A stretch of 64,000 bases of DNA, from assembly GCF_002574545.1 (NCBI RefSeq), contig NZ_NUGT01000020.1:1-64000 (forward strand). The letters run 5' to 3'. Below, in pieces: positions 42,653 through 60,467 of the stretch. A model generated the notes under the pieces. The model saw nothing but the letters and a program-made list of their open reading frames with translations. It did no database searches and was not told the origin of the DNA. The first letter of the stretch is position 1. The number at the start of each line of letters is the position of its first letter. A program made the position numbers and the translations under genes. Source of the stretch: Bacillus sp. AFS055030 (GTDB taxonomy: Bacteria; Bacillota; Bacilli; Bacillales; Bacillaceae_G).

Positions 42653-42681
42653 AAAAAACCTTGCTTTAATAAAAGCAAGGC
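42653..42681 (-). terminator. Intrinsic terminator of the catabolic operon
   Basis: Minus strand: GCCTTGCTTTTATTAAAGCAAGG stem followed by TTTTTT, downstream of nagB. Confidence 0.88.
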
Positions 42682-42813
42682 TCATTTGTAGTCGGTGTCT
42701 TAAAAATATAGTAAATATTTATATTTTCAAACTCAGCTGACCGAAAATTGCGATATTTTTCTACAATTATAATTATTAGTTTACAAAAACGATACTATTA
42801 GTAACTATCTTAA

Positions 42814-43581
42814 CTAATAGATAACACTCTTCTCTAACAAAGAAATTTCTTTAGTGTCTAATAAGCTAGATGCTTCTTTATCCAGAAGAACCATGATATT
42901 TGGATGCAATTGAAGAAAAGATCCAGGACACCAAGTTGAGATATTTCCTTGGAATGCTTCTTTGACAATTTCAGCTTTATCCTTCCCTAGCGCAATAAAC
43001 AGTATTTTCTTTGAACGCATTATATCCCTCACACCCATTGTAATAGCATAAGATGGGACATCTTCTACTTTTTCAAAGTCTTTAGAATTAGCCTGTTTGG
43101 TTTCATTCGTTAATTCCACCACATGAGTGCCACCAATAAGATGCTGATCCGGTTCGTTAAAACCAATATGTCCATTCGTTCCGATTCCGAGTATCTGCAG
43201 ATCTAATTGTCCTACTTGATTTAATAACTGATCATATCTACTAACTTCATCGTCCATATTAACCGCATTTCCATTAGGGATATGCAGATTATTTTCCTTT
43301 ACATCAATAGAGTTATATAGGTTTTTTTGCATAAATGAATAAAAGCTTTGATTGTGCTCTTTTGGAAGCCCAATATACTCATCCAAATTATACATGCTCA
43401 CTTGCTTAAACGAAACAACCCCTGATTGATGTTGCTTAATCAACTCTTCATAAAGTCCAATAGGTGTCCGTCCCGTTGCCATCCCCATTTTTAAATTAGG
43501 CTTTATGTTAATTTGTTGTAAAACGAAATATGCTGCATACTGATTTAATTGTTCAGCTGTTTCAAAAATTTTTATTTTCAT
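42814..43581 (-). CDS. nagB: Glucosamine-6-phosphate deaminase
   Basis: A 255-aa isomerase/deaminase converting glucosamine 6-phosphate to fructose 6-phosphate and ammonia. Family motifs: MATGRTPIGLYEEL at about 34-47, YNLDEYIGLP at 65-74 and GIGTNGHIGFNEP at about 132-144. It lacks the C-terminal extension of allosteric enterobacterial forms. Last gene of the catabolic locus; it overlaps the aldolase stop by four bases. Its presence suggests an amino sugar or amino-polyol intermediate, or relaxed substrate use. Confidence 0.93.
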   Translation of the reverse strand: MKIKIFETAEQLNQYAAYFVLQQINIKPNLKMGMATGRTPIGLYEELIKQHQSGVVSFKQVSMYNLDEYIGLPKEHNQSFYSFMQKNLYNSIDVKENNLHIPNGNAVNMDDEVSRYDQLLNQVGQLDLQILGIGTNGHIGFNEPDQHLIGGTHVVELTNETKQANSKDFEKVEDVPSYAITMGVRDIMRSKKILFIALGKDKAEIVKEAFQGNISTWCPGSFLQLHPNIMVLLDKEASSLLDTKEISLLEKSVIY

Positions 43582-44234
43582 AGTTTAATCAATTCTTTCT
43601 TTGCTTCTTGTACTTTTTGCACGAATTGTCTAGAGAGATCAGTTATAGTTTGAAAATCGTTCACTTTAGAACTTGAAGTTAATGATCCACCGATTCCAAC
43701 AGCAACTGCCCCTGAATTAATCCAATCAGATATATTTTCAAGACTGACACCACCAGTTGGCATGATTTTAGCCTGCGGAATTGGTCCTTTTATAGCTTTA
43801 ATCATATCAGTTCCTTGCACCTCACCCGGAAATAGTTTCATAATATCGACACCAAGTTCCATTGCTTGAACTACTTCTTTAATTGACATAACACCTGGTA
43901 ATGATGCTATTTGATAGCGATTACAAAGCTTGATTGTACTTTCATTTAAATAAGGAGATACAATAAAGGATGCGCCAGAAAGAATAGCTATGCGGGCAGT
44001 TTCTGAATCCATCACTGTACCTGCTCCTATAGCAATATCTTCATTTATATATCTATCAGCCAAATACTCTAATACTTTATGAGCTTTTGGGACGGTAAAT
44101 GTGATTTCTAAAGAATTGATTCCACCTTCTAAACATGCTTCTGAAATCCTAATAGCTTGCTCTTTACTATCAGCTCGAATAACAGGTACTACTCCGTTAT
44201 CACAGATGATTTTTGTTACTTGATCTTTATTCAT
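43578..44234 (-). CDS. KDPG/KHG-type 2-keto-3-deoxy aldolase
   Basis: Class I aldolase (218 aa) of the EDA family that cleaves 2-keto-3-deoxy acid phosphates to pyruvate and an aldehyde. Motifs: VPVIRADSKEQAI near the N-terminus, GINSLEITF (catalytic Glu), GAGTVMD and the Schiff-base Lys in DIMKLFPGE. It overlaps both neighbours (1 and 4 bases), so it is tightly coupled to the SerA-like and nagB genes. No sugar-acid dehydratase is encoded in the cluster, so its keto-deoxy substrate must arise in another way. Confidence 0.92.
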   Translation of the reverse strand: MNKDQVTKIICDNGVVPVIRADSKEQAIRISEACLEGGINSLEITFTVPKAHKVLEYLADRYINEDIAIGAGTVMDSETARIAILSGASFIVSPYLNESTIKLCNRYQIASLPGVMSIKEVVQAMELGVDIMKLFPGEVQGTDMIKAIKGPIPQAKIMPTGGVSLENISDWINSGAVAVGIGGSLTSSSKVNDFQTITDLSRQFVQKVQEAKKELIKL

Positions 44235-45178
44235 TAGTATGCTCCTTCCAGTTCCAAAGATTTAAGGAGATTCTGACTCGCATAAATTCCCATATTATCA
44301 ATGGCTTGAATCGTTGATGCTGCGCAATGAGAGCCAATCACGATATTATCTAATAATAATAGACCATGATTAATTGGTGGCTCCTGCTCAAATACATCGA
44401 TTCCTGCTCCCCAAATCAACTTGTTTTTTAAAGCATTTTCAAGTGCATCTTCGTTAATTAGTCCACCTCTCGCCGTATTAATGATAACAGCAGTAGGTTT
44501 CATCATTTGAAACTCTTCGTAGCTGATGATGTGACGGGTTTCATTATTTAAAGGTAGGTGCAAACTAATGAAATCTGCTTCTTGAAGAATATCGTTGACA
44601 CTTTCAACGTAGGTGATCCCATGTTCTTTAGCAAATTCCTCATCTCTTACAAGGTCATATGCTAATATTTTCATATCAAAACCTTTTGCTCTTTTAGCAA
44701 CACCTTTTCCAATATTGCCAGTTCCAATTAACCCTAAAGTTTTGCCATAGGCATCAACCGTTGTTATTTTAGACCAATCTTTCTGTCGACACTTATAATC
44801 GATTGTTGCCACTCTTCTAGCTACCGATAACATAAGTGACATCGTATAATCTGCTACTGCATTACTATTAGCACCAGCTGTAATGGATACTGAAATTTGA
44901 TGTTTATCAGCATAATCCAAATCAATGTTGTCTGTCCCGACACCGTATTTGGCAATTGCCTTTAGGTTTTTTGCTTCCATTAGAACCTCTTTATCTAACG
45001 GATCGACGCCAATTATAACACCATCTACGTCTTGGATAGCTTCTTTCATTTCAGCTTTCGTTAATATACGATTATATCGGTTTAACTGCACTTCATAACC
45101 TGCATTTTCAAGTAGTTGAATAGGTGTTGTACTGTGCTTTCCAAATGAACGAGGCGTTACTAAAACTTTTTTTTTCAT
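44234..45178 (-). CDS. D-2-hydroxyacid dehydrogenase (SerA-like)
   Basis: A 314-aa NAD-dependent dehydrogenase of the phosphoglycerate dehydrogenase family without the C-terminal ACT domain. Rossmann motif GTGNIGKGVAKRA at about 149-161. The catalytic Arg is in NTARGGLI, and the Glu and His follow (the latter in GSHCAAST). The short form and the cluster context suggest oxidation of a D-hydroxy acid derived from the imported substrate, and not serine synthesis. Confidence 0.88.
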   Translation of the reverse strand: MKKKVLVTPRSFGKHSTTPIQLLENAGYEVQLNRYNRILTKAEMKEAIQDVDGVIIGVDPLDKEVLMEAKNLKAIAKYGVGTDNIDLDYADKHQISVSITAGANSNAVADYTMSLMLSVARRVATIDYKCRQKDWSKITTVDAYGKTLGLIGTGNIGKGVAKRAKGFDMKILAYDLVRDEEFAKEHGITYVESVNDILQEADFISLHLPLNNETRHIISYEEFQMMKPTAVIINTARGGLINEDALENALKNKLIWGAGIDVFEQEPPINHGLLLLDNIVIGSHCAASTIQAIDNMGIYASQNLLKSLELEGAY

Positions 45179-45220
45179 ACTTCTCCCCCTTTTTTTAAAC
45201 TTAGTCTATTTTAATCATGG

Positions 45221-46168
45221 TTAATTAGCAGTCAATCGTAATTCCATGGCGATTTTCTCTAGATTTTCAAAATTCCCTTGAATATCTACATCGAATACTT
45301 CTGCAATAACTTGTGTCCAACCGTGTATAAAATAAATCCAGCCATCTTCAATATGTAAATTTTTATCTTCTTTTTGCTTTATCGCTTGATGCATAAAATC
45401 TAATGCCCCACGGTAATTCAATTCCCATACAAGACTATTTTGAGGGAAACTTGCTTTATCACTTAAAGGTGTACCAGGTCGATCTTTTCCTAATCCTGTT
45501 GCATTAATAATTAATGAATGGGGTGGCAAATTTTGTAACACATGATCATTATCTTCAGCTGTTGGGCATAAATGGTATTCAAATTGAACAGGTGTGTTAA
45601 TTTGACTCAATAATTTTTCGGCAGACTTTAAACGCGCTTCACTACGATTACTAATAATGATCTTTTTCGTTAAATTCGAACCATGTTTAACATCAGTTAA
45701 ATAAGAGCATATAGCGAGAGCACTACCGCCGGCACCCATAATAAATACCTCACCATTATGCTTCCAAAAATCTTTCGGTATGAAAGCTTCCATCGCTAAT
45801 CCACTGGAAATGGGATCTTTAGCGTGTCCGATCAGACATTCATTTCGTTTTGATATAGAAGAAATCTCATGAAACATTGTTGCATAATGATCTAAATCAT
45901 CGAAAGCAGCCGATGCGGCGTTATATAGATCAATCTTATGAGTAGTGACAAGAGCACCCATTGAAAGTGGGTCATTTTTGATAAAATCTATACATTTTTG
46001 ATAGACACTATCTTCCGCGTGAATTTCTATATCAATTCCTTTGATAACAGCTTCATTAATCCCTAACTCTTGAGCCCACAAAGGAAAAAGATTCATTATA
46101 GAAGATTGAGTTGTAGTTACACCGATAAAATACATGGTTGGTTGTTGTGCGCTTTCTGGTAAAATCAT
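45221..46168 (-). CDS. Shikimate-dehydrogenase-like oxidoreductase
   Basis: AroE-family protein of 315 aa, longer than the usual 270-290. The N-terminal substrate domain has GALVTTHKIDLYNAA (the conserved Lys). The NAD(P) domain has GAGGSALAICSYL at about 148-160, and NATGLGKDRPGTPLS is typical. Clustered AroE paralogues act on substrates other than shikimate, so a sugar-derived substrate is likely here. ATG 46168 is eight bases from AGGTGA; a TTG at 46171 is also in frame. Confidence 0.8.
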   Translation of the reverse strand: MILPESAQQPTMYFIGVTTTQSSIMNLFPLWAQELGINEAVIKGIDIEIHAEDSVYQKCIDFIKNDPLSMGALVTTHKIDLYNAASAAFDDLDHYATMFHEISSISKRNECLIGHAKDPISSGLAMEAFIPKDFWKHNGEVFIMGAGGSALAICSYLTDVKHGSNLTKKIIISNRSEARLKSAEKLLSQINTPVQFEYHLCPTAEDNDHVLQNLPPHSLIINATGLGKDRPGTPLSDKASFPQNSLVWELNYRGALDFMHQAIKQKEDKNLHIEDGWIYFIHGWTQVIAEVFDVDIQGNFENLEKIAMELRLTAN

Positions 46169-46171
46169 CAA

Positions 46172-47137
46172 TCACATCACCTTTTTATTATTTTTTTTTG
46201 AGAATGCTTCAGCCGGATTATTAACAGTTATTTGGCGAATACTTTCATTACTCAGTCCGGTTTTTCTTAACAAAGGAATAAAACTCTCTTGAATGTAATC
46301 AAGTCCAATCTGACCGCCGTAACTTTTCAAACGTGCTCTCGTTGTATCTAGCCCAATCAAAATTTGACTGATGAATCTTGACTCCTCCATCAATAATAGT
46401 AGCTCTGCTTCTTCTTCGTCATTATGATATTTAAAACGGCCAATCGTATCATATTCCAAATAGATACCCATTTCCGCCAGTTCTTTATGAAGATTTAACT
46501 CATCAAGCGTCCGATCCATGTGACAAATAATTAAGCAATGCGGAGGAACACCTTGTTTCATAAAAAATTGAGATATTTCCATCCCTTGCCTTGTACTTTC
46601 TACGTGACACATAATAGGAAATCCAGTTTCCAGGCAGGCACGAGCAGCAGCCATGAACCATTTTTTTTCGTGATCGGCTCTGCGTTCTTCATCATATGCT
46701 ATTTTAATATTTCCAGCTTTCAGACTAATAGTTTCGGAGGGAATAGCATGATCTGTGTTCACAAACATTCCCACAGTTAACTCTCTTATAAAAATCTGGC
46801 TTAATTGATCCTCTGTATAATAATGAATCCAATGATTTTTATCATAAAAGCTCATTTTATGAAAACCTGTCGATGCTACGATATTTATTCCAGATTCTTT
46901 TGAAGCAGCTGCCAAGTAATTTTCCATTCTCCCGCATCCAAGTGGTTGTGCATCAATTAACGCCTGCCCGCCAACACTTTTAAAAAGTTTCAATTCACGA
47001 ATTGATAGGTCATAATCATCAATGCGTAATACAGGATTAACGGTGGCAGGATGTCCATCAGCCAAAAATATATGTTCATGGCTGTGACAGAATCCGAATT
47101 CTTCTTTTGAAACCGGTCCTAAAATTGTCTGAATCAC
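46172..47137 (-). CDS. Phosphotriesterase-family protein (probable sugar-phosphate lactonase)
   Basis: Amidohydrolase-superfamily protein of 321 aa, COG1735 type. Metal ligands: HEH near residue 20 (CHSHEHIFLAD), His in MCHVES, His in ICHMD and Asp in IGLDTTR. Members with this layout in Listeria and Bacillus hydrolyse phosphorylated sugar lactones (established for Lmo2620 and Bh0225). Start is GTG at 47137, six bases after AAGGA; a TTG at 47155 lies upstream of that site. Its place in the operon fits hydrolysis of a lactone made by one of the dehydrogenases. Confidence 0.85.
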   Translation of the reverse strand: MIQTILGPVSKEEFGFCHSHEHIFLADGHPATVNPVLRIDDYDLSIRELKLFKSVGGQALIDAQPLGCGRMENYLAAASKESGINIVASTGFHKMSFYDKNHWIHYYTEDQLSQIFIRELTVGMFVNTDHAIPSETISLKAGNIKIAYDEERRADHEKKWFMAAARACLETGFPIMCHVESTRQGMEISQFFMKQGVPPHCLIICHMDRTLDELNLHKELAEMGIYLEYDTIGRFKYHNDEEEAELLLLMEESRFISQILIGLDTTRARLKSYGGQIGLDYIQESFIPLLRKTGLSNESIRQITVNNPAEAFSKKNNKKVM

Positions 47138-47180
47138 AAAAGTTCCTTCCTCCAATTCCTAGTTTTGGCACAGTATTATA

Positions 47181-47858
47181 TTAATTGGATTCAATTTGCT
47201 TTATAGCTTCTTCGATTTCAGAAAATGTATATGCTTTATAATCAGCTTTTGACAATTCATTTCCTTGGTCCATTCCAAAAACGCATCCAATTGTTTGAAT
47301 CTGATTATTTTTTCCAGCCTCCATATCCGAAGAGCGATCACCAATCATAATATATCTCTCAAATGGATGTTCATTTTTGATGATTTTAACTAAATCCACT
47401 TTAGAGTTTGTCCTCTGTTTACCAGCACAATAAATTTCTTTAAATAAGGGAGTTAAATTATAAAGTTCAATTGCATGAGTGACATAGGTTTCACTTCCAT
47501 TGCTTGCAACAAATAAGTTATATCCTTTTCTTTTAAGATTGTTCAATGTTTCTTCAACTTTTGGAAAGAGCGAGCCAAATTCACTCATCATCTTAAGTTC
47601 ATTTTGTTCTAGGATATCTGATGCAAGTTTTATAACATTACTCGAAGCTTCAGGAAGTAAGTTCTTAAATATATCTTTAACTGTACGCATCCCGATATTT
47701 TCTATTATTCTACTGTCAGGTATTTCTACAGTAGGATAAAGAGAATTAGCTATTAACGTTTGAATGGTTTTTTGAAAAGTTTTAATAGATAATGCTGCAC
47801 TATTAAACAGTGTTCCATCTAAATCAAAAAGCAACGCAGAATTCTTCATACTTATCAT
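47181..47858 (-). CDS. HAD-family phosphatase
   Basis: A 225-aa haloacid-dehalogenase-type hydrolase. Motif I LLFDLDGTLFNS at residues 9-20, motif II VASNGSE, the motif III Lys in the KQRTNSKVDL region, and motif IV MIGDRSSDMEAG. A helical cap lies between motifs I and II. It is close to the phosphoglycolate phosphatase group. In the operon it would remove phosphate from an intermediate or a dead-end product. Confidence 0.88.
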   Translation of the reverse strand: MISMKNSALLFDLDGTLFNSAALSIKTFQKTIQTLIANSLYPTVEIPDSRIIENIGMRTVKDIFKNLLPEASSNVIKLASDILEQNELKMMSEFGSLFPKVEETLNNLKRKGYNLFVASNGSETYVTHAIELYNLTPLFKEIYCAGKQRTNSKVDLVKIIKNEHPFERYIMIGDRSSDMEAGKNNQIQTIGCVFGMDQGNELSKADYKAYTFSEIEEAIKQIESN

Positions 47859-47868
47859 GATCTCTTAC

Positions 47869-48441
47869 TTAATCATTTTTCCATTTAGGATTGTCAATGA
47901 TGACAGGTTTCCCATTTTCATCTATGATTAGCTTACGAAAGCCCTTTGTTTCAATTGTTCCATAGTCGTGACCTGCATCTGCTCGGAAAACAAAAAATGT
48001 AACCAATGGTTCGGTTCCTACATTGATACTACGATGAGCATAACGGCCTGGAACATATACTGCACGACCAGGTGTCAATTCTTCTGCAACACTTTCTCCT
48101 TCTGGATTTTCCATTAACATATAGCCATTTCCACTCAAGCAATAATAGACTTCTGCTGTATCAAGAATGGTATGAAAATGCCCTTTTGTCATATAGTATT
48201 CATTTCCTACTTTTCCAGGGTATACAATACTTGTTCCGAAAAGTAAATCACCCTCTTTTTCAGGTAAGCTTAATTCATAAAACTCATACGCCAATACATC
48301 TTCTTTTGCCAACATGTTCTCCAACTCATCATTGTCAGAAAACATTCCTTTCATATTAGACAAATATCGCTTCGTTGTACTCTTTTCGTCAGATATACCA
48401 TTAATCAGATCAAAATACATAGAAAATGGTGTTGAATTCAT
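47869..48441 (-). CDS. Cupin-type phosphoglucose isomerase family protein
   Basis: A 190-aa protein of the archaeal-type (cupin) glucose-6-phosphate isomerase family. Metal ligands are visible in KGHFHTILDTAEVYYCLSG (His, His, Glu) and in PGRYAHRSIN (His). This family is unrelated to normal Bacillus Pgi and in Bacteria is usually found in sugar catabolic operons. It probably interconverts an aldose and ketose phosphate in this pathway. AAGGGG precedes the ATG. Confidence 0.85.
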   Translation of the reverse strand: MNSTPFSMYFDLINGISDEKSTTKRYLSNMKGMFSDNDELENMLAKEDVLAYEFYELSLPEKEGDLLFGTSIVYPGKVGNEYYMTKGHFHTILDTAEVYYCLSGNGYMLMENPEGESVAEELTPGRAVYVPGRYAHRSINVGTEPLVTFFVFRADAGHDYGTIETKGFRKLIIDENGKPVIIDNPKWKND

Positions 48442-48466
48442 TATAAAAACCCCTTCTCATTTATGA

Positions 48467-49519
48467 TTAGTTAGTTTCGAATAATACTTTAGTAAATGGA
48501 TATTTACGATTTATTAAATCTTTGAAAACAGTCGGTGCTTCTGATAAATTAAATACATGTGTAATCATAGGCTTCATTTTTAAGAGACCTGCTTTATAAT
48601 AATCCACGGTTGCATTCCACTCCACACCAGGAAATGGAGCACTATATGAATTCCATGATCCATGAAGAGATAATTCATTACGAACAATACATTCAAAGCT
48701 TTTAGGTGGCAGTACAACATCATGATGAGCGGTACCCAGGAACAGTACACGTCCTTTTTTTCGGGCAATTCTTAAAGATTGTTCCTGTGTTTGAGCCACA
48801 CCAGCCGTTTCAATTACAACGTGTGCTCCTTTTTCATCCGTAAGTCGTTTAATATTAGAAACAGTGTCATTTGACGCCAGCACGACTTGATCTGCACCAA
48901 GGGATTTCGCTAACTCTAATTTTTCTTCTGAAATATCTACAGCAATTACAGTAGTCGCCCCCATAATTCTTGCAAACTGTAAAGCAAATAATCCTAATGG
49001 CCCACAGCCTAATATAACAACGGTATCTCCAACGTTTATTCCGACAATTTTCATACCATGCAAAGTCACTGCTGCTGGCTCAATCATAGCTCCTTCATGA
49101 AAAGTCATCCCTTCTGAAAGAATAACCATATTTTGTTCAGGGACCTTCACATACTCTGCAAATCCTCCGTCTGTTCTTGAACCAAGAAAATTGTAGTCTT
49201 CACATAAACCATAGTCACCCTGTTCACAATATTCGCATTTCAGACACGGATGCATAGGTGAAACTGCGACACGATCTCCTGTTTTTACCTTCGTTACATC
49301 TGGTCCAACCGCTACCACTTCTCCAGAAAATTCATGTCCAGGAATTGTTGGGAAATGATAAGTCCCTGTTTTCATCACGCGCCCTAAATCTGATCCACAA
49401 ACACCGGCAACTTTTACATTTACAAGTACTTCACTTCCATGAATTTCGGGAATTTCTGTTTGTTCATACCGAAGATCCGCTGGAGCATACAAGACTGCTG
49501 CATTCATACTTTTTTTCAT
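48467..49519 (-). CDS. Zinc polyol-phosphate dehydrogenase, GatD-like
   Basis: A 350-aa medium-chain zinc dehydrogenase. Catalytic zinc ligands are in GVCGSD and GHEFSGEV. The structural zinc Cys4 loop is CLKCEYCEQGDYGLC at about 94-108. The Rossmann loop is ILGCGPLGLFALQFA. The segment FLGSRTDGGFAEY and the ELSLHGSWNSYSAPFPG region match galactitol-1-phosphate 5-dehydrogenases best. It probably oxidises a polyol phosphate to a ketose phosphate. Confidence 0.87.
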   Translation of the reverse strand: MKKSMNAAVLYAPADLRYEQTEIPEIHGSEVLVNVKVAGVCGSDLGRVMKTGTYHFPTIPGHEFSGEVVAVGPDVTKVKTGDRVAVSPMHPCLKCEYCEQGDYGLCEDYNFLGSRTDGGFAEYVKVPEQNMVILSEGMTFHEGAMIEPAAVTLHGMKIVGINVGDTVVILGCGPLGLFALQFARIMGATTVIAVDISEEKLELAKSLGADQVVLASNDTVSNIKRLTDEKGAHVVIETAGVAQTQEQSLRIARKKGRVLFLGTAHHDVVLPPKSFECIVRNELSLHGSWNSYSAPFPGVEWNATVDYYKAGLLKMKPMITHVFNLSEAPTVFKDLINRKYPFTKVLFETN

Positions 49520-49561
49520 CTCAAATCTCCTTATTATTTAAAAAATTAATAATATAGTTAG

Positions 49562-50599
49562 TTAAGAATTAACTATTACAGTTTTCATACCCTCACCACT
49601 TAAAGCATGATTAAATGCTACTAATGTCTGATCCAGAGAGTATGTTGCAGAAATAAGAGGCATTAAATTAATATGCCTATCCGATAGTAGTTTAATAGAT
49701 TGATAGAAATCATCGATAGTTGAACCTGTTGTTCCTGTTACAATCATTTCTTTGTAATGTATTAGATTAGTATCCAATTGAACCATTTCTTTCCCTTTTG
49801 GTAATCCACCAAATAAAGAGATACGACCTCTATATCCAGATAATTCTAAAGCTTGTGTCTGTACTTCCGGTGAAGAGACTGCAGTAATGACTACGTCTAC
49901 TCCATTTCCATTCGTAAGGTCCATAATAGCTTCTTTCAAGTCCACTTTTTTAGAATTAATAATGACATCTGCTCCATGTTTCTTTATCTCTTCTAATCTA
50001 GCATCTCGCGTTCCAGCTACAATGACACGAGCCCCTGCAAGTTTATTTAGCATAACGTGCATTGCTCCAATAGGACCTGGACCAATGACAAGAACTGTAT
50101 CACCAGGTTTCGTATCGTGTGCTGAATAAGCTCGATATGCACAAGAAAAAGGTTCAATCAATGCAGCTTCTTCAAAACTGATGTGATCGGGGATTGATAC
50201 GACGTTTCCAATTGCTTTTGCTGGTACCTTCATGTATTCAGCAAACCCACCATCCATGCTAATCCCGAATGCTTCATATTGAGGACATAGTTGGTTAAAA
50301 CCTTGTAAACACATATGACATTGTCCGCACCCTACGTTAGGAGCTACTGTGACACGATCACCAACTTTTAATTTTGAAACGTTTTTTCCAACCGCATACA
50401 CTTCACCGGAAAGTTCATGGCCTAATACTCGCTCTGTATTTGTAGGAATTTTAAAATGTCCATTTTTGAAAATACGTTTGTCTGTTCCACAAATTGAGCT
50501 TGCTTTAATTTTAATAAGAAGTTCATTATCATTGATTTCTGGTTTGGAAAGTTCTCTCAATTGTAGTTCTGCTACACCTTTAAAAAGTGCTGCTTTCAT
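49562..50599 (-). CDS. Zinc-dependent polyol/sugar dehydrogenase
   Basis: A 345-aa medium-chain zinc dehydrogenase, a diverged paralogue of the neighbour downstream. Zinc residues are in SSICGTDKR and GHELSGEV, and the Cys4 loop is CGQCHMCLQGFNQLC. The NAD loop is VIGPGPIGAMHVML. It resembles the sorbitol/threonine dehydrogenase group. Its promoter carries the paired A/T palindromes (50641-50682), and it begins the long downstream transcript that runs to nagB. Confidence 0.87.
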   Translation of the reverse strand: MKAALFKGVAELQLRELSKPEINDNELLIKIKASSICGTDKRIFKNGHFKIPTNTERVLGHELSGEVYAVGKNVSKLKVGDRVTVAPNVGCGQCHMCLQGFNQLCPQYEAFGISMDGGFAEYMKVPAKAIGNVVSIPDHISFEEAALIEPFSCAYRAYSAHDTKPGDTVLVIGPGPIGAMHVMLNKLAGARVIVAGTRDARLEEIKKHGADVIINSKKVDLKEAIMDLTNGNGVDVVITAVSSPEVQTQALELSGYRGRISLFGGLPKGKEMVQLDTNLIHYKEMIVTGTTGSTIDDFYQSIKLLSDRHINLMPLISATYSLDQTLVAFNHALSGEGMKTVIVNS

Positions 50600-50636
50600 T
50601 ACATATCATCCACTTTCTATAATTTTTATTAACTTT

Positions 50637-50682
50637 ATTGTAAAATTTTATATTTTTATTGTCAATAAAAATAAAATTTTAT
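50637..50682 (-). promoter_or_regulatory. Promoter with paired A/T palindromes, dehydrogenase to nagB operon
   Basis: Minus strand: TTGACA (50665-50660), 17-bp spacer, TACAAT (50642-50637). ATAAAATTTTAT (50671-50682) sits just upstream of the -35, and TAAAATTTTA (50641-50650) sits against the -10, 31 bp centre to centre. The same pair occurs at 58251-58292. Confidence 0.7.
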
Positions 50683-50747
50683 TTTTTTTGAGAGTTAAGA
50701 TAACCTTCCTTACTAGAAGGAAGGATAGAATCTTTTTAACTTTTATC

Positions 50748-51653
50748 TTATCTTTCACGGGATACTTTTAACATGTTATAAGTATCCTCATAGTGATTAA
50801 GTGTTTCATCAAAATGTTTTGCTGCAAAACAAGCGTACAATGTATCTACCACTATAATCTGTGCAGTTTTAGACGTAACTGCCTCCCAGTCTAAAGCTGA
50901 CACTTCGTTTGATGACTTAGTTGAAGTAAATAAGACCTCGTCAGAATACTTATTAATAGGAGCATCTTCAAACGAAGTAATACCAATTGTAAAAGCACCT
51001 TTAGACTGCGCTAATTTTAACGATTCAATAACAGGTTTAGATCTACCTGAATTACTAATTCCTATAACGACAGTTTCGGGAGTAGCGATTGCAGAAGTCA
51101 TCAATTGGATACTATAATCATTTAGTAGTGTGCTCGGTTTTCCTGCACGTGTGAACCGCATAACACCGTTTAACCCTGCTACACTTGAGGAGCCCATACA
51201 ACTAAACATTAAAATTTTTGCATTTTCGATAGCTTTTACAGCACGATCTAAAGCTTCCGCATTTAATAACTTTCTTGTTTCAGACAAAGTCTGGGTATGT
51301 CTATAAATAACTTTATCTAAAATCCTATCGATAGAGTCATCCCTACTAATGTCTTCGTACACATATTTTTCTTCTTCTTTTTCATCTTTTTTATCACTAT
51401 AAGTTAATGTTTCAGCAATTAAAATTTTCAGTTCTCTAAAACTATTTAATCCTAATTCTCGTACAAAACGTGTAATCGTTGATTCAGAGACATCACAAGC
51501 CATAGACATATCTTTAATCGTAGTATTTTTTGATACTTGTGGATTCTCTATAATATAATTAGCTACTCTACGCAAAGCTGGGTTTAAATAAGACATTTTT
51601 TGGTATATTAGCTTGAATACATCCTGATATTCAAACTCATTTGTAGATTTCAT
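50748..51653 (-). CDS. MurR/RpiR-family transcriptional regulator
   Basis: A 301-aa regulator: N-terminal HTH_6 domain (residues 1-80, with SESTITRFVRELGLNSFRELK as recognition region) and a C-terminal SIS sugar-phosphate-binding domain (about 125-260, ILMFSCMGSSSVAGLNG and GISNSGRSKPVIE). Proteins of this family sense phosphosugars and control the operons they sit in. It lies in the middle of the cluster, so it is the prime candidate for binding the recurring A/T palindromes. Confidence 0.92.
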   Translation of the reverse strand: MKSTNEFEYQDVFKLIYQKMSYLNPALRRVANYIIENPQVSKNTTIKDMSMACDVSESTITRFVRELGLNSFRELKILIAETLTYSDKKDEKEEEKYVYEDISRDDSIDRILDKVIYRHTQTLSETRKLLNAEALDRAVKAIENAKILMFSCMGSSSVAGLNGVMRFTRAGKPSTLLNDYSIQLMTSAIATPETVVIGISNSGRSKPVIESLKLAQSKGAFTIGITSFEDAPINKYSDEVLFTSTKSSNEVSALDWEAVTSKTAQIIVVDTLYACFAAKHFDETLNHYEDTYNMLKVSRER

Positions 51654-51695
51654 CTATTTCTCTCCTTACTCTTTCTCATAGTTATTTTTAATAAG

Positions 51696-51766
51696 ATTAT
51701 ACCGAGATAAAAATGAGAAAGAAAGGAATATTAATGCTGGGTGAATTAAGGGAATAAAATTTTATT
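51696..51766 (-). promoter_or_regulatory. Promoter region and A/T palindrome of the RpiR gene
   Basis: TATAAT on the minus strand (51701-51696) with TTTCTT 17 bp upstream, and AATAAAATTTTATT at 51753-51766 about 30 bp further up. Suggests autoregulation. Confidence 0.5.
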
Positions 51767-51811
51767 TTATAATGCGCCTTCATTTATTCAGTATCATGTC
51801 ATTTTTTCGTT

Positions 51812-53311
51812 CTAGTGTTCTTCCCAAATTAAAGCTCTTTCAACAGCTTTCTTCCACCCTGCATATAATTTTGTTCTATTCTCTTCATCCATATCAGGAT
51901 TGAATTGTTTATCTAATTTAAAGGAATGCACTAATTCTTCTTCATTTTTCCAATATCCAGTTGCTAAACCAGCTAAAAATGCAGCTCCTCTTGCTGTTGA
52001 TTCTACGACTTGTGGTCTTAATACAGGAACATTTAACAAATCAGATTGGAATTTCATGAGAAAATTGTTTCTGCATGCTCCTCCATCCACTTTTAATTCT
52101 GTATTCACAATGCCTGAATCTTCTTCCATACACTCAATAACATCACGAATTTGATACGCAATGGATTCTAGCGTTGCACGAATAATGTGATTTCGATTAG
52201 CTCCCCTTGTGAGACCCAATATTGCTCCTCTTGCATATTGATCCCAATATGGAGCGGATAAGCCTACAAACGCCGGTACAACATACACTCCGTTTGTATT
52301 TTCTACTTTTTGAGCAAAATACTCTGTATCCTCACTATGTTGAATTAACTTCAGTTCGTCCCTCAGCCATTGAACAGATGCTCCTACTACATATAGAAGA
52401 CCTTCTAAAGCGTATTCAACTTTCCCATTTAATCCCCAAGCAATAGTCGTCAAGAGCCCCTTATCTGATGAAATAACATTTTTTCCTGTATTCATTAATA
52501 ATGAGCCACCGGTTCCATATGTAGCTTTAGTCATTCCTTCATTGAAACAAGTTTGCCCAAATAAAGCGGCTTGTTGGTCACCAATAGCTGCGGCAATAGG
52601 GATTGAGGCACCAAAAAATAAACTCTTATCTGTTTCCCCATAGATTTCACTTGATGGCGTTACAGAAGGTAAAATATGTTTAGGGATATCGAGTTCTTCA
52701 AGTAATTTATCATCCCACTTGAGACTACGAATATTAAATAACATTGTTCTAGAAGCATTGGAATAATCTGTAACATGCACTTTTCCACCACTTAAGTTCC
52801 AAATCAACCATGTATCTATTGTGCCAAAGAGAAGTTCACTATTTTCAGCTTTTTCTCTTGCACCTTCTACATTATCAAGAATCCATTTTATTTTTGTAGC
52901 AGAGAAATATGCATCGATAATTAAACCTGTATTTTCTTTTACATATGTACCCCAGCCTTTAGAAATCATTTCATCACAAATATTTGCCGTTCTATGATCT
53001 TGCCAAACAATTGCATTCATTATTGGCTTTCCTGTATTTTTATCCCATACCACAGTAGTCTCGCGCTGATTCGTTACGCCAATAGCTTGAATATCTTCGG
53101 GCCAGATTCCTGCCTTTTCTATCGCTTCGTTCGCTGTTTTGATTTGTGCATTCCATATATCCATTGGGTTATGTTCAACCCAACCTGGCTTTGGATAGAT
53201 TTGTGGAAACTCTTGAAAAGCCGTAGTTACAACATTTCCTTCATGATCAAAGATAATTGTTCTAGCGCTGGTTGTCCCACAATCAAAAGACATAATATAT
53301 TTGCTGGACAT
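51812..53311 (-). CDS. glpK: Glycerol kinase-type FGGY kinase
   Basis: A 499-aa carbohydrate kinase, close to GlpK in length and sequence. FGGY signatures: [15 protein letters not shown] (phosphate 1 loop), [20 protein letters not shown], and the C-terminal [22 protein letters not shown] 53311 follows GGGGAGGAG; the in-frame start at 53362 lies upstream of it. No glpF or glpD is linked, so the substrate here may be glycerol or a longer polyol. A cre-like site lies upstream. Confidence 0.85.
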
Positions 53312-53361
53312 TAGAATTCTCCTCCCCTCCAAGTCAAAAACTAATTCAGAACTCTTTTTCA

Positions 53362-53380
53362 ATTATAAACTAAAATTTTA
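53362..53380 (-). promoter_or_regulatory. -10 box and A/T palindrome upstream of glpK
   Basis: TATAAT (minus, 53367-53362) with TAAAATTTTA (53371-53380) directly upstream, as in the other promoters of the cluster. No good -35 is visible. Confidence 0.45.
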
Positions 53381-53395
53381 AATATAAGTTGATAA

Positions 53396-53409
53396 TGTAC
53401 GCGTTTTCA
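53396..53409 (-). promoter_or_regulatory. Probable CcpA cre site upstream of glpK
   Basis: TGAAAACGCGTACA differs from the cre consensus TGWNANCGNTNWCA at one position. It lies about 30 bases upstream of the -10, so catabolite repression is likely. Confidence 0.6.
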
Positions 53410-53426
53410 TATTAATAAATGATAAA

Positions 53427-53453
53427 GGAGACCAAAGTCTCCTCCTTTAATCA
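53427..53453 (-). terminator. Weak terminator after the SDR gene
   Basis: Minus strand: GGAGACTTTGGTCTCC stem followed by a T-rich but interrupted tail. Confidence 0.5.
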
Positions 53454-54272
53454 TTAAACTTCCATTCCATATCGATGTGCTTTATGTGTTGGATAGAATG
53501 CCATATGTGGAATGGTTACATCTGGAGTTCTAGTTGCTACAAACAGACTAACTTCAGCTACATTTTCAACATCAATACAATGTGCATAAATTCCTTCCCT
53601 TTTTTCATTCTCATCTAGCCATCCTTCAGTATAGGCTGGAAGATTTCCATCATAAAGACCTTTATCAATAATTTCTGTCATTGGAGTTTTAACATGTGAT
53701 GGATTAATAACTGTTACACCAATATTTTTATCTTTTCCTTCAAGTAGTATATTTTTACTAAATCCCATCATACCATGCTTTGAAGCTCGATATGGACTAT
53801 GACCTGGTCCAGATGCTACACGTGCAGATGAAGAGCCCATATTAAGGATACGACCTCCACTTTCCTGCTTTTCCATATAACGAAACGCTTCTCTACAGCA
53901 TAGAAATACACCAGTTAAATTTGGCCCGATCGTTTTATTCCATTCTTCTAATGTTACCTCACTTACTGGTGGAGCAAGTGAATCACGTCCTGCACTATTT
54001 ACTAAAAGGTCAATTTTTCCCCATTTCTCGTAAGCTTGTTTAAAAAAGTTTATAACTTCTTGTTCCTGTGTTACATCTGCTTTAACTCCAATACACTCAT
54101 TTATTTCATTTACTTCAGCAGTTATTCGTTCAAGCCGTTTCTCATCTACATCAACAAGCATTACTTTACATTCATTTGCAGCAAAAATTCTTGCAACTGC
54201 TTCTCCAATTCCAGAAGCTCCTCCCGTTATAATTGCTACTTTACCTTTTAACTGTGTGCCTTTAGGATACAT
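53454..54272 (-). CDS. Short-chain dehydrogenase/reductase
   Basis: Classical SDR of 272 aa: nucleotide loop TGGASGIGEAVARIF at about 18-32, Asp of LVDVDEKR pointing to NAD use, NSAGRD (usually NNAG), catalytic Ser in NMGSSSARVA and Tyr-x3-Lys in YRASK. GTG at 54287 is in frame, but ATG 54272 follows GTGAGG correctly. It has its own promoter with repeated A/T palindromes. Probably oxidises or reduces the imported sugar or polyol. Confidence 0.87.
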   Translation of the reverse strand: MYPKGTQLKGKVAIITGGASGIGEAVARIFAANECKVMLVDVDEKRLERITAEVNEINECIGVKADVTQEQEVINFFKQAYEKWGKIDLLVNSAGRDSLAPPVSEVTLEEWNKTIGPNLTGVFLCCREAFRYMEKQESGGRILNMGSSSARVASGPGHSPYRASKHGMMGFSKNILLEGKDKNIGVTVINPSHVKTPMTEIIDKGLYDGNLPAYTEGWLDENEKREGIYAHCIDVENVAEVSLFVATRTPDVTIPHMAFYPTHKAHRYGMEV

Positions 54273-54296
54273 AAATTTTAACCTCACTTTAATTTT

Positions 54297-54368
54297 ATAA
54301 AATTTTATTTTATTACCTAATTATAGTATAAAATATTATTTTATTTAGTCAATATAAAATATTATTTT
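54297..54368 (-). promoter_or_regulatory. Promoter with three A/T palindromes, SDR gene
   Basis: Minus strand: TTGACT (54352-54347), 16-bp spacer, TATACT (54330-54325). AAAATATTATTTT occurs at 54356-54368 and again at 54330-54342, a 26-bp period around the -35. ATAAAATTTTAT lies at 54297-54308 downstream of the -10. Confidence 0.65.
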
Positions 54369-54414
54369 ATTTTAATTTATCTATCTTTTCGAATACGCAA
54401 ACAAAAATCTATAT

Positions 54415-55392
54415 TTAGAACTCTTTCCCTCTCAATCGATCAAGTAGTACTGCAATAATAATCACTGTCCCTTTAACAATTAATTGCCAATAATAATCAA
54501 CATTCATTAATGTTAATCCGTTTGTGATGATACCCATAATTAATACACCTACAATAGTCGATTGAATTCTACCTTTTCCTCCTGTGAAGCTTGTTCCGCC
54601 CAGAATTACTGCTGCAATTGCATCCAATTCATACATGTTACCTGCTGTAGGTTGTCCTGAATACACTCTTCCTGCTAAAACAACCCCTCCCAAACCAGCG
54701 AGCAAACCACTTATTGAATAAACATTAATCAGAGACTTTTCAACTTTTATTCCAGCTAAATGAGCTGCTTCTTCATTTCCACCAATCGCATAAATATGGC
54801 GCCCAAACATTGTATACTTTAAGATAAAAGCCATTATCAGATAAACTACTAGAGTAATATAAATGGGAGTAGGAATACCTAAGATTTTCCCTCCGCCAAT
54901 AAACTTAAAATGTTCTGAAGCCAAAACAATAGGATATCCACCACTGATAACATATGCTAATCCTCGTACATAAGTCATACTCCCCAACGTGACAATAAAA
55001 GGGGGTAACTTTGTTTTTGCAATGAAAAAACCATTTATGAATCCAACAAGGTAACCAACTACTATACCTAAAATCATAGATAGAAATGGATTTATACCAG
55101 ATGAAGAAGCCATCACTGATATGACACCCGACAAAGCAACTGTTGAACCAACTGACAAATCAATTCCACCTGTTAAAATAACGATCGTCATTCCAGCTGC
55201 TAGAATTGCAATAATAGAAACTTGTTTTAATACATTTAAAATATTTTCTGCTTCTAAAAAATTAGGAGCCGTAAAAGTAAGTAGTAGGCATAATATGAAT
55301 AAAACAAAAACCATGCCTAATCGATTCCATAGGATAGATGAAGCTCTCTTTAAATTACCTGACTGCGAGCGTGTCTGTACATTTGCATTCAT
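54415..55392 (-). CDS. Ribose/monosaccharide-type ABC permease (RbsC-like)
   Basis: A 325-aa membrane protein of the RbsC/AraH family with eight to ten helices. Family markers: LTGGIDLSVGSTVALSGV at about 75-92, the GRHIYAIGGNEEAAHLAGI coupling loop at about 205-223, and AVILGGTSFTGGKG near 265-278. It overlaps the ATPase gene by four bases. It forms the channel of the importer encoded at 54415-58021. Confidence 0.93.
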   Translation of the reverse strand: MNANVQTRSQSGNLKRASSILWNRLGMVFVLFILCLLLTFTAPNFLEAENILNVLKQVSIIAILAAGMTIVILTGGIDLSVGSTVALSGVISVMASSSGINPFLSMILGIVVGYLVGFINGFFIAKTKLPPFIVTLGSMTYVRGLAYVISGGYPIVLASEHFKFIGGGKILGIPTPIYITLVVYLIMAFILKYTMFGRHIYAIGGNEEAAHLAGIKVEKSLINVYSISGLLAGLGGVVLAGRVYSGQPTAGNMYELDAIAAVILGGTSFTGGKGRIQSTIVGVLIMGIITNGLTLMNVDYYWQLIVKGTVIIIAVLLDRLRGKEF

Positions 55393-56957
55393 AATTTTGT
55401 TTCCCCCCCAGTAGCCAAATACATAATTTGTTCTTGTGTCATTTCTTTTCTTAACAATTCACCTTTTAATTTCCCTTCACTCATAACTAGAACCCTATCA
55501 CACATTCCTATTACTTCAGGTAGTTCAGATGATATCATTAATACAGCCAATCCTCTCTCTGCTAATTCTGATATAATTTTATGAATTTCAGTTTTTGCAC
55601 CAATATCTACACCTCTTGTAGGTTCATCTAGCAACAACACTTTAGGAGAAAGAGATAACCATCGGGCAATAATTGCTTTCTGCTGATTCCCCCCACTTAA
55701 GTTAACTACCTTTTGATCCGGAGATGAAGTTTTAATATTAAATTCGTCGATGAACCTTTTTGCACTTGCATCAATTTGTTTCCAATTCAGTACACTTAGA
55801 CGACGATGTTTACTGAGTTCTGTTATTGTGATATTTTCTTTTACAGACATTGACAAAAACAAAGCTTGATCTTTTCGACTCTCAGGTACATGTGCAATGC
55901 AATTTTTAATCGCATCGATTGGAGAAGCAATGTCAACATTTTGACCATTCGTATAAATTTCTCCATTCGTTATCTTCGAAGCTCCAAAAATTAGTTTCAT
56001 TAATTCAGTTCTTCCTGAACCAACTAATCCGGCCAATCCTACAATTTCCCCTGGATAAATTTTAAAAGAGACATCCTTTACAATTGTGTTATCTGAGACA
56101 TTTTTTAATTCAAGAGCAGGCAGTGTTTCATTAGAAAAACAATTAATAGAATCCGAAGATATGATTCTATTAAATAAGTTTTTCATTTCTCTTCCAACCA
56201 TGTTTTTGACAAGTTCATGAGGAGTCGTTTTTTCAATGAGATCACTTATGATCGATTCACCATCTCGTAATACTGTAAATCTATCACAAATCTCAAAAAT
56301 TTCTTCCATTCTATGTGATATATAAACGATTGCTACCCCTTGCTTTTTCAGATTATGAATGATCTGGAATAAGGAGAAAATTTCTTTATCTGTTAATGAA
56401 GCAGTTGGTTCATCTAAGATAAGAACTTTTGCTTTAAATGCTAAAGCTCTGGCAATTTCAACCATTTGCTGTTGTGCAATACTTAAACTAGATACTAAAG
56501 CTTTAGCATGGAGGTTAAATCCTAACTTATTCAATAATTCTTGGGCATGTTGATGTACCTTATCCCATTTGACGAATCCAAATCGATTTTTAGGGTAATT
56601 AGTGCCCATTAAAATATTTTCACTAATCGTTAAGTTTGGAGAAACTGTTAATTCTTGATGTACAACACTGATTCCATTTTCTCTTGCATCTATTGGATCC
56701 ATCCAACATACCTTTTTCCCATTTAAATAAATATGTCCTTTGTCTTTATCAGGGATATGAATACCTGCTAGTATTTTTATTAAGGTAGACTTTCCTGCAC
56801 CATTTTCACCCATTAATGCGTGGACTTCTCCAGGATAAAGTTCTAAATTCACATTTTTTAATACCGTTGTACCTGAAAAGGTCTTACTTATATTGCTGAT
56901 TTTTAAAACTGGTTCACTATTTAGAGTATTCAATCTATTTTTTTCTTTTACAAGCAT
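55389..56957 (-). CDS. Ribose/monosaccharide-type ABC ATPase (RbsA-like)
   Basis: A 522-aa tandem ATPase. First domain: Walker A GENGAGKST, signature LSIAQQQMVEIARA. Second domain: degenerate Walker A GLVGSGRTE, signature LSGGNQQKAIIARWL. This asymmetry is normal for RbsA/MglA/XylG. ATG 56957 is eight bases after GGTGA; a GTG at 56969 also exists. It powers import with the RbsC-like and RbsB-like proteins on either side. Confidence 0.93.
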   Translation of the reverse strand: MLVKEKNRLNTLNSEPVLKISNISKTFSGTTVLKNVNLELYPGEVHALMGENGAGKSTLIKILAGIHIPDKDKGHIYLNGKKVCWMDPIDARENGISVVHQELTVSPNLTISENILMGTNYPKNRFGFVKWDKVHQHAQELLNKLGFNLHAKALVSSLSIAQQQMVEIARALAFKAKVLILDEPTASLTDKEIFSLFQIIHNLKKQGVAIVYISHRMEEIFEICDRFTVLRDGESIISDLIEKTTPHELVKNMVGREMKNLFNRIISSDSINCFSNETLPALELKNVSDNTIVKDVSFKIYPGEIVGLAGLVGSGRTELMKLIFGASKITNGEIYTNGQNVDIASPIDAIKNCIAHVPESRKDQALFLSMSVKENITITELSKHRRLSVLNWKQIDASAKRFIDEFNIKTSSPDQKVVNLSGGNQQKAIIARWLSLSPKVLLLDEPTRGVDIGAKTEIHKIISELAERGLAVLMISSELPEVIGMCDRVLVMSEGKLKGELLRKEMTQEQIMYLATGGETKL

Positions 56958-57070
56958 TTCTTGTCTCACCCCTCTTATGTATTTTTGAGAAAGAATGGCT
57001 GAAACCTAAATTGGATTCACATTCACAATTAGCCTATTTAATATTGAATACAAACTAATTTTTTTAAATA

Positions 57071-58021
57071 CTACCAACCTTTATAGGAAGGTGAATTTTC
57101 TTGAGTAACTATTTTCACAGGTACTTTTGCAACCTTTTCTACCTTTTCACCTTTGATTGCCTTCATTCCAATTTCTACAGCCTGTTTAGCCATATCTCTT
57201 GGTGATTGAGCAACTGTAGCATTAATCGAACTTCCTTCTTTTTTCATTGCCTTGATTGCTTCAGGAGCCCCGTCTACAGATACGATAAAGAAATCATCTA
57301 AACGATTAGCTTGTGATTGAGCAATTTCCACACCAATTGCTTCTGGATCATTAATAGTAAAAACAGCATTGATAGATCCTTTAGGATTAGCTTGTAGGAT
57401 ACTTTCCATTACTGATAATGATTTTTCGCGATTCGCTTCACCATTTTGTTTTGCAATTACTTTAATATTAGAATTTTTAAGTGCAGCTTCAAAACCTTTA
57501 ATACGATCTGTCACTGCTTGAATAGGAGGTCCATCAACAATGACAATATTACCTTTTCCGCCTAGTTCTTTAACAATATATTCTCCTGCTATTTTACCTG
57601 CTTGGTAATTGTCGGATGTGATAGTGGAAGTAACTCCACCTTCAGCATCAGTATCAATTGCTACTATTGGTATACCAGCATCCTTTGCTTGTTGAACTCC
57701 GGCAGCAATCCCTTTTGAATCCGCTGCTACAATAACAATTAAATCTACTCTTTTAGTAATAAAACTTTCAATTTGTGCAAGTTGTTTGGTTAAATCATAT
57801 TCGGCACTTTCTACAATTACCTTCGCACCCATATTTTTACCAGCTTCTTTAAACCCTTCTGCTACAGCTACATGATATGGATTATTCAACGGCCCAGCTG
57901 ACAGTGCAATAGTTAGCTTATCCTTCTTACTTGAGGAAGAACTAGCACTATTACAAGCACTCATTAAACTGATTGAAATGATTAAGATTAAGCCAACAAA
58001 AGAATGAATATATTTTTTCAA
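57071..58021 (-). CDS. Sugar-binding lipoprotein (RbsB-like)
   Basis: A 316-aa substrate-binding protein of the periplasmic-binding type I fold. The lipobox LMSAC is at residues 19-23, followed by a Ser-rich spacer. Binding-fold segments include LSAGPLNNPYHVAVAEGF and IPIVAIDTDAEGG. Start is TTG at 58021, eight bases after AGGAGG. It is the first long gene of the ABC operon. Its 5' leader is about 220 bases and contains a strong-SD short reading frame at 58061-58123. Confidence 0.92.
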   Translation of the reverse strand: MKKYIHSFVGLILIISISLMSACNSASSSSSKKDKLTIALSAGPLNNPYHVAVAEGFKEAGKNMGAKVIVESAEYDLTKQLAQIESFITKRVDLIVIVAADSKGIAAGVQQAKDAGIPIVAIDTDAEGGVTSTITSDNYQAGKIAGEYIVKELGGKGNIVIVDGPPIQAVTDRIKGFEAALKNSNIKVIAKQNGEANREKSLSVMESILQANPKGSINAVFTINDPEAIGVEIAQSQANRLDDFFIVSVDGAPEAIKAMKKEGSSINATVAQSPRDMAKQAVEIGMKAIKGEKVEKVAKVPVKIVTQENSPSYKGW

Positions 58022-58246: not shown

Positions 58247-58292
58247 ATTATAAAATTTTAAAATATTTAGTCAATATAAAATAAAATTTTAT
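58247..58292 (-). promoter_or_regulatory. Promoter with paired A/T palindromes, ABC operon
   Basis: Minus strand: TTGACT (58274-58269), 16-bp spacer, TATAAT (58252-58247). ATAAAATTTTAT (58281-58292) lies upstream of the -35 and TAAAATTTTA (58251-58260) lies against the -10, 31 bp apart as at 50641-50682. Confidence 0.72.
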
Positions 58293-58348
58293 TTTTATGG
58301 ATATTAATAAAATAAAAAATAAAAGCTAACAAAATTGTTAGTTTCAGA

Positions 58349-58388
58349 CTGAAGACAAACTCGGCAAAAATCGAGTTTGCCTTCAGTC
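58349..58388. repeat. Inverted repeat beside the transposase remnant
   Basis: GACTGAAGACAAACTCG and CGAGTTTGCCTTCAGTC form a long hairpin with one mismatch. Probably the former IS end or the terminator of a neighbour. Confidence 0.6.
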
Positions 58389-60434: not shown

Positions 60435-60467
60435 AAAAAAGCCAAGAAAAAATTCTTGGCTTTTTTA
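60435..60467. terminator. Bidirectional intrinsic terminator
   Basis: AAAAAAGCCAAGAA/TTCTTGGCTTTTTT, symmetrical, upstream of the L,D-transpeptidase and downstream of the 41-aa gene. Confidence 0.85.

Follow-up and report, generated by a model that had tools for sequence, protein, structure and literature searches.

Two kinds of pathways are among the described systems closest to the locus reported here. In the Entner-Doudoroff pathway, an aldose phosphate is converted through a lactone and an aldonate phosphate into a 2-keto acid, which is split by an aldolase of the 2-keto-3-deoxy-6-phosphogluconate (KDPG) family; KDPG aldolases normally cut 2-keto-3-deoxy acids. In erythritol and galactitol catabolism, the polyol is phosphorylated by a kinase or upon transport, and its phosphate is then oxidized by a dehydrogenase to a ketose phosphate, without, to our knowledge, any series of AroE, lactonase, SerA and aldolase enzymes. 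Bacillus sp. AFS055030 (genome of 4.39 Mb) carries, in the 64 kb at the start of contig NZ_NUGT01000020.1 that were analysed (hereafter the window), a 15-gene locus resembling both. As in polyol catabolism, a dehydrogenase would oxidize a polyol phosphate to a ketose phosphate and, as in the Entner-Doudoroff pathway, the route would go through an aldose phosphate, a lactone, an aldonate phosphate and a 2-keto acid to a KDPG-family aldolase. Unlike the latter pathway, the locus has no dehydratase and includes a cupin isomerase, AroE-fold and SerA-like dehydrogenases and a lactonase of another fold.

The reading favoured here, with a probability of roughly 0.4, is that the 15 genes form one regulon whose products take up a polyol or rare ketose and degrade it oxidatively without a dehydratase. 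The observations behind it are the gene content, the conservation of a core, a change of lactonase type between lineages, a change in the kinase pocket and a shared operator-like motif. The core consists of a cupin-type phosphoglucose isomerase-like enzyme, an AroE-fold dehydrogenase, a PTE/COG1735 lactonase, a SerA-like 2-hydroxyacid dehydrogenase and the KDPG-type aldolase Eda. In the best reading, these five enzymes would fit five successive reactions, leading from ketose phosphate to aldose phosphate, lactone phosphate, aldonate phosphate, 2-keto-aldonate phosphate and cleavage. If right, this would be an oxidative sugar-phosphate pathway of Bacillota and proteobacterial plasmids, with carriers originating from soil, the rhizosphere and the gut. 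The open-access literature, which excludes most subscription papers, was searched for the gene set and for single enzymes and gave no description of the set or of the pathway, nor any characterised operon with this set; within that scope, the statement of an earlier note on this DNA that no described pathway is known to use all these families is borne out. The enzyme families are known and the pathway is apparently new.

Conservation of a five-gene core

The earlier note proposed a neighbourhood comparison of the AroE-like, COG1735 and cupin genes. This comparison showed that the set does not stand alone: a core recurs, found whole in many loci and accompanied by a different lactonase on proteobacterial plasmids. 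A scan of genome contigs with the AroE-like protein gave 140 relatives, of which the best 80 loci were kept; the counts are uncorrected for relatedness, and some loci are cut by contig ends. Core genes scored by tblastn were the cupin gene in 74 of the 80 loci, the SerA-like gene in 64, the PTE gene in 50 and eda in 44, all five being present in 37, which, going by record names, belong to Bacillota. The best match of each core gene always lies on the strand of the AroE-like gene and never on the opposite one, and the AroE-like and cupin genes are direct neighbours 57 times. These counts supersede a first one based on called open reading frames (ORFs) in 77 loci (cupin 69, SerA-like 60, PTE 47, Eda 39, all five 34), which missed genes lying under longer ORFs. 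While the core stays, importers, kinases, first dehydrogenases and regulators differ among loci.

Among 398 genomes drawn from the phylum, the AroE-like gene occurs in four and the PTE type in five, the two being adjacent in all four. As one of the four is the genome of the window itself and two share a genus, the co-occurrence figure of 4.9e-9 was set aside. Two more genomes, from a sample of the class, carry all five core genes. Altogether, the conserved neighbourhoods and the shared operator-like motif suggest a gene association exceeding chance.

The genes upstream of the core in other loci (fucose isomerase, psicose epimerase, levoglucosan dehydrogenase-like) gave no name for the substrate of the window's locus. 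One of these loci contains a relative of levoglucosan dehydrogenase (L045:18934-20109; 410 bits, cut-off 650). In another (L040:1053-4322), a glycyl radical enzyme (pyruvate formate-lyase/glycerol dehydratase family, 390 bits, cut-off 678) and its apparent activase lie beside Tdh-like and GatD-like genes. Three core loci (L022:12600-17123, L118 and L119) are devoid of Eda and carry a hexulose-6-phosphate synthase gene, with isomerase, RbsK-like and DeoC-like genes apparently after the core. Lastly, a family of about 440 residues recurs in eight loci (L012:2269-3591 and seven related ones), with no Pfam match and no NCBIfam match at E<=1e-20.

Plasmid loci and horizontal transfer

A tblastn search of plasmids found 15 AroE-like relatives, all proteobacterial. 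Their loci all carry the cupin gene, 14 the SerA-like gene and 10 the Eda gene. Plasmids of Shinella zoogloeoides and Ensifer adhaerens, found through the short-chain dehydrogenase (SDR), possess most of the window's set. Shinella proteins are 73% (SDR), 63% (cupin), 61% (GlpK-type kinase), 49% (AroE-like and GatD-like), 44% (Tdh-like), 40% (RpiR), 31% (SerA-like) and 30% (Eda) identical to those of the window. By annotation, this locus also encodes a metallo-hydrolase, a HAD phosphatase and an ABC importer, and the Ensifer locus has genes matching the Shinella set; neither PTE nor NagB was found in these two stretches. In the Paenibacillus locus L084, identities reach 77% for the SDR, 73% for the kinase, 69% for the GatD-like protein, 59% for RpiR and 58% for the Tdh-like protein, and AroE-like and cupin genes are also present; its 21 kb yielded no SerA, PTE or Eda.

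The AroE-like gene is absent from 12 genomes of the same genus and six others of the family, except for one weak match (29%, E 3.4e-4) taken for an ordinary AroE. It is found in three of 398 genomes of the class, its own included, and the SDR in one of 397 genomes of the order, its own. The GC content per 2 kb is 0.32-0.37 in the locus and 0.29-0.33 in its flanks. The locus was likely gained by transfer. No phage carrying the AroE-like gene was retrieved in a phage search. Beside the locus, a short ORF (58428-58715, plus strand) looks like a transposase end and has no Pfam match.

A lactonase slot filled by different folds

The PTE type occurs in 50 of the 80 genome-contig loci and in none of the 15 plasmid loci, whereas a metallo-beta-lactamase-fold hydrolase occurs in none of the former and in all of the latter; the four plasmid hydrolases scanned match Lactamase_B_2 and B_3. 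In addition, 14 of the 77 loci of the ORF-based set carry an SMP-30-like gene, PTE being absent from six of these. The occupation of one slot by different folds points to a single reaction, lactone hydrolysis.

The best family and structure matches of the window's PTE-type protein are the COG1735 phospho-furanose lactonases (NF045706; 3pnz and 3msr), although it scores far below the cut-off of that model. GF[HN]K and KY patches are common to the protein and these two structures and absent from 1bf6 and 3f4c. Since phosphorylated sugar lactones are the substrates of 3pnz and 3msr, the lactone of the proposed route probably carries a phosphate. Residues H26, H28, K151, H184, H212 and D270, which we take to form the PTE-family metal site, are invariant in 18 sequences. 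The lactone step is the best-supported part of the proposed route. Elsewhere, a distant PTE relative (33%) lies in an apparent ascorbate-type phosphotransferase system operon (L117:3171-8557).

Other enzymes of the core and the kinase

The AroE-like protein is annotated as shikimate dehydrogenase in eight annotated plasmid records. It has no Pfam match at E<=0.001, its best NCBIfam model gives 51.4 bits (cut-off 413), and it reaches 37.4 bits with TIGR00507 (cut-off 200.2), for which the real AroE of the genome scores 274.2. It has the shikimate dehydrogenase fold and keeps the catalytic Lys and Asp. However, the Asn and Thr of the shikimate substrate region are replaced by Ser104 and Lys118, which argues against shikimate activity. 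If the proposed route is right, a shikimate dehydrogenase label on this marker enzyme leads astray any attempt to reconstruct sugar or aromatic pathways. The same fold is found in a ketose reductase, the 5-ketofructose reductase (7cok, 7col), likewise a sugar enzyme. It differs from the AroE-like protein by a sequence identity of 17-18% to the latter's model and by its substrate, the free diketone 5-ketofructose, which it reduces (PMC7954740). The AroE-like protein is a candidate for the lactone-making dehydrogenase, probably NADP-linked.

The cupin protein resembles the cupin-type phosphoglucose isomerase of Thermococcales over its full length (about 210 bits). The four metal ligands, H88, H90, E97 and H136, do not vary among 68 homologues, and the protein retains most residues of the active site. 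These ligands, and the role of Tyr152 in proton transfer in PfPGI, are given in PMC6627849. Unlike the Thermococcales enzyme, the window's protein belongs to bacterial catabolic loci and has Phe in place of Tyr152; therefore, it probably acts on another sugar phosphate. Arg153 was considered as a sign of an acidic substrate and dropped, being present in only 47 of the 68 homologues.

Conservation reaches at least 95% for R237, E266 and H284 of the SerA-like enzyme (62 homologues) and for K133 of Eda (39 homologues). The core enzymes look small and soluble.

The kinase is of the GlpK type, as had been proposed, with a variant pocket. It keeps the NQRE, VWQ, YFS and GDQQ motifs, whereas the CFMLM of E. 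coli GlpK, also found in a second, ordinary GlpK encoded elsewhere in the genome (60% identical to the locus kinase), becomes GGSLLM in the window and L084 and GGTLLM in Shinella and Ensifer. The lost Phe corresponds to F270 of E. coli GlpK, which contacts glycerol; the probable substrate is therefore a molecule longer than glycerol. The ORF start of this gene as listed is about 17 codons early relative to GlpK.

Regulation

The palindrome ATAAAATWTTATTTTAT, allowing up to two mismatches, has 14 matches on both strands of the window (1.44 expected; none of 100 shuffles reaches 14). All fall in five intergenic stretches, preceding the genes of the binding protein, SDR, kinase (a weak site), RpiR and Tdh-like enzyme. 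The whole genome contains five exact copies, every one in the locus. With one mismatch it gives 16 matches, 8 of them in the locus; as a reversed control gives 11, single-mismatch sites elsewhere in the genome are meaningless. Since the motif was found in the locus before being counted, there is some circularity in its counts for the window and the genome, and the Paenibacillus locus L084 provides the independent case. It has six matches with up to three mismatches (0.36 expected; none of 100 shuffles reaches 6), including one exact copy between the RpiR and Tdh-like genes and one with a single mismatch before the SDR gene.

Before the binding-protein, SDR and Tdh-like genes, a copy of the palindrome lies directly ahead of TTGACT or TTGACA, followed 16-17 bases on by a -10-like box. 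Promoter-like sites in the region are below the shuffled number (55 against 74.3) and terminator-like hairpins are at chance level (8 found, 7.5 expected); both were used only where they adjoin the palindrome or close the gene run. The palindrome would likely be explained by binding of the local RpiR, making it a putative operator, and from this arrangement the 15 genes look like one regulated unit. CcpA-like sites are not above chance (25 found, 18.6 expected, 13 of 100 shuffles reaching 25). Upstream of the binding-protein gene there is also a 17-base inverted repeat (58347-58388) with 94% complementarity and a loop of 8 bases.

Proposed route and alternative explanations

Each reaction of the route is inferred from the enzyme families. 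The substrate would be imported by the ABC transporter, interconverted if needed by the SDR and Tdh-like enzyme, and phosphorylated on a terminal carbon by the GlpK variant. The GatD-like enzyme would then convert the polyol phosphate into a ketose phosphate, a pool that NagB may also feed from a 2-amino-sugar phosphate. The cupin isomerase would give the aldose phosphate, the AroE-like dehydrogenase, probably with NADP, the lactone phosphate, and the COG1735 lactonase the aldonate phosphate. The SerA-like enzyme would oxidize C2, and the KDPG-type aldolase would split the resulting 2-keto-aldonate phosphate into hydroxypyruvate and a phosphorylated aldehyde (glyceraldehyde-3-phosphate from C6, glycolaldehyde phosphate from C5). 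RpiR would control several promoters, and the variable upstream genes would bring different polyols or ketoses to the ketose phosphate. The least certain elements are the substrate, the positions of the AroE-like and SerA-like enzymes and the products; the roles of the SDR, Tdh-like, HAD and NagB proteins are likewise conjectural.

The earlier note had already proposed a catabolic locus for a polyol or an unusual sugar, which the data support, as they do its order of import, phosphorylation, GatD-like oxidation, isomerisation, lactone hydrolysis, further oxidation and aldol cleavage. This order is amended as follows: the lactone is probably phosphorylated; the AroE-like enzyme becomes the candidate for a lactone-making step that was lacking; and cleavage to pyruvate is replaced, as a non-deoxy 2-keto acid, formed without dehydration, would yield hydroxypyruvate.

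A more ambitious form of this reading, which we consider somewhat unlikely, is a cross-phylum, dehydratase-free route to 2-keto-aldonate phosphate that erases stereochemistry. If true, configuration would be lost at C2, C3 and C4, and a single constant core could handle a variety of rare sugars; this would account for the variation of importers, kinases and first dehydrogenases around it. It would also give the AroE fold a new function, its member here acting as a dehydrogenase of sugar phosphates.

Several facts weigh against the favoured reading. Eda and PTE were not found in 36 and 30 of the 80 loci, respectively, some contigs being short, and neither PTE nor an SMP-30-like gene is present in 24 of the 77 loci. 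Of the core, only the cupin and AroE-like genes occur in seven loci (most of them bearing the names Atribacteria or Caldatribacterium) and only the AroE-like gene in two planctomycete loci, and in one sampled genome (L120) no core gene was found beyond AroE and PTE. No fusion among core genes was found in the loci compared. Tyr152, a proton-transfer residue in PfPGI, is Phe in 59 of 68 cupin homologues. The palindrome has no match in the Shinella locus, and NagB has no firm place in the route. We also know of no established 3-hydroxy substrate in the KDPG aldolase family.

The same route could operate with other assignments, a zinc dehydrogenase or the SDR making the lactone, the AroE-like enzyme, in the manner of 5-ketofructose reductase, working at a secondary hydroxyl, and the SerA-like enzyme reducing hydroxypyruvate from the aldolase to D-glycerate (the genome encodes two glycerate kinases). 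This is rather unlikely: the zinc dehydrogenases differ between loci while the AroE-like, cupin and SerA-like enzymes stay together, so that an invariable step is more plausibly assigned to an enzyme that is always present with them. It is quite improbable that the route ends as in the Entner-Doudoroff pathway, a dehydratase encoded elsewhere providing a 2-keto-3-deoxy acid that Eda cuts to pyruvate. Eda does exceed the cut-off of a gram-positive KHG/KDPG aldolase model and keeps the Schiff-base Lys, and the genome encodes one IlvD/EDD homologue. However, this 556-residue protein is the only such homologue and the cell may require it as IlvD, none of the gene clusters recurring among the 80 loci is a dehydratase, and two dehydrogenases would be left over.

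NagB, which belongs to the same gene run and exceeds its own cut-off, could instead be central, deaminating a 2-amino-2-deoxy hexose phosphate before the core works on the ketose phosphate. Indeed, 13 of the 77 loci possess a NagB with 35% identity or more (11 on the AroE strand), but it was not found in the other 64, nor in the Shinella and Ensifer stretches, and a polyol-type kinase and a GatD-like enzyme would be unexpected, all of which makes such an amino-sugar route quite improbable. Finally, the binding protein is nearest RbsB models and the kinase exceeds the GlpK cut-off, as would befit a simple ribose or glycerol operon that happens to adjoin unrelated genes. This explanation is already disfavoured and hardly credible: binding protein and permease are both under the cut-offs of the ribose transporter models, the kinase differs at the glycerol pocket while a normal GlpK exists elsewhere, and the motif and the cross-phylum conservation bind the genes together.

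Gene content and surroundings of the locus

The 15 intact ORFs follow one another on the minus strand from 58021 to 42814 without interruption (Table 1), with intergenic distances of -4 to 158 bases; gaps of 127-158 bases lie upstream of the SDR, kinase, RpiR and Tdh-like genes. The longest run goes from Tdh through GatD, cupin, HAD, PTE, AroE, SerA and Eda to NagB, and is closed by the hairpin at 42683-42656. Families were called by NCBIfam and Pfam profile scans, bit scores being compared with model cut-offs; together with the ORF list, they confirm the gene number, strand and families given in the earlier note. They also bear out its remark on the lack of a dehydratase among the 15 genes, the sole IlvD/EDD homologue lying outside the locus. 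Besides Eda, the genome contains no other KDPG-type aldolase.

Table 1. Genes and putative regulatory sites of the locus (positions in the window)
Feature	Position	Strand	Basis
Substrate-binding lipoprotein, ribose-binding type	57071..58021	-	RbsB model 175.5 bits (cut-off 337); best PDB sequence match 4rwe, sugar-binding transport protein, 228 bits
Sugar ABC ATPase	55389..56969	-	xylose-type model 568 bits (cut-off 699)
Sugar ABC permease	54415..55392	-	RbsC-type model 297.9 bits (cut-off 398)
Short-chain dehydrogenase (SDR)	53454..54287	-	PF00106; 72-73% identity on Shinella/Ensifer plasmids, 77% in L084
GlpK-type kinase, altered glycerol pocket	51812..53311 (probable start 53311; ORF opens 53362)	-	825 bits (cut-off 498)
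MurR/RpiR-family regulator	50748..51653	-	PF01418 and PF01380
Tdh-like zinc dehydrogenase	49562..50599	-	242 bits (cut-off 458)
GatD-like zinc dehydrogenase, proposed polyol-phosphate dehydrogenase	48467..49519	-	PRK10309 galactitol-1-phosphate 5-dehydrogenase model 304.7 bits (cut-off 550)
Cupin-type phosphoglucose isomerase-like enzyme, proposed ketose-phosphate/aldose-phosphate isomerase	47869..48441	-	PF06560 110 bits; 1j3p 210 bits
HAD phosphatase	47181..47858	-	PF13419
PTE/COG1735 lactonase, proposed sugar-lactone-phosphate hydrolase	46172..47155	-	best model NF045706 142.9 bits (cut-off 630); best PDB matches 3msr, 3pnz
AroE-fold dehydrogenase, proposed aldose-phosphate 1-dehydrogenase	45221..46171	-	
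SerA-like 2-hydroxyacid dehydrogenase	44234..45178	-	PF02826
KDPG-type class I aldolase (Eda)	43578..44234	-	PRK06552 286.5 bits (cut-off 238)
NagB-type glucosamine-6-phosphate deaminase family	42814..43581	-	TIGR00502 274.7 bits (cut-off 236.9)
Terminator-like hairpin 3' of NagB	42656..42683	-	
Palindromic operator-like site before binding-protein gene	58276..58297	.	then TTGACT-16-TATAAT (58274-58247)
Three operator-like sites before SDR gene	54297..54370	.	beside TTGACT-16-TATACT (54352-54325)
Weak operator-like site before kinase gene	53365..53381	.	2 mismatches
Operator-like site before rpiR gene	51754..51770	.	exact
Operator-like site before Tdh-like gene	50666..50687	.	1 mismatch; then TTGACA-17-TACAAT (50665-50637)

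Directly downstream of the locus, GerA-type, spore permease and GerAC-type genes (38188-41915) form a germination receptor operon, and the organism is therefore presumably a spore former. Upstream (58852-62916) are genes encoding an L,D-transpeptidase (YkuD) with an Ig domain, a DinB-like protein and a flavin amine oxidase.

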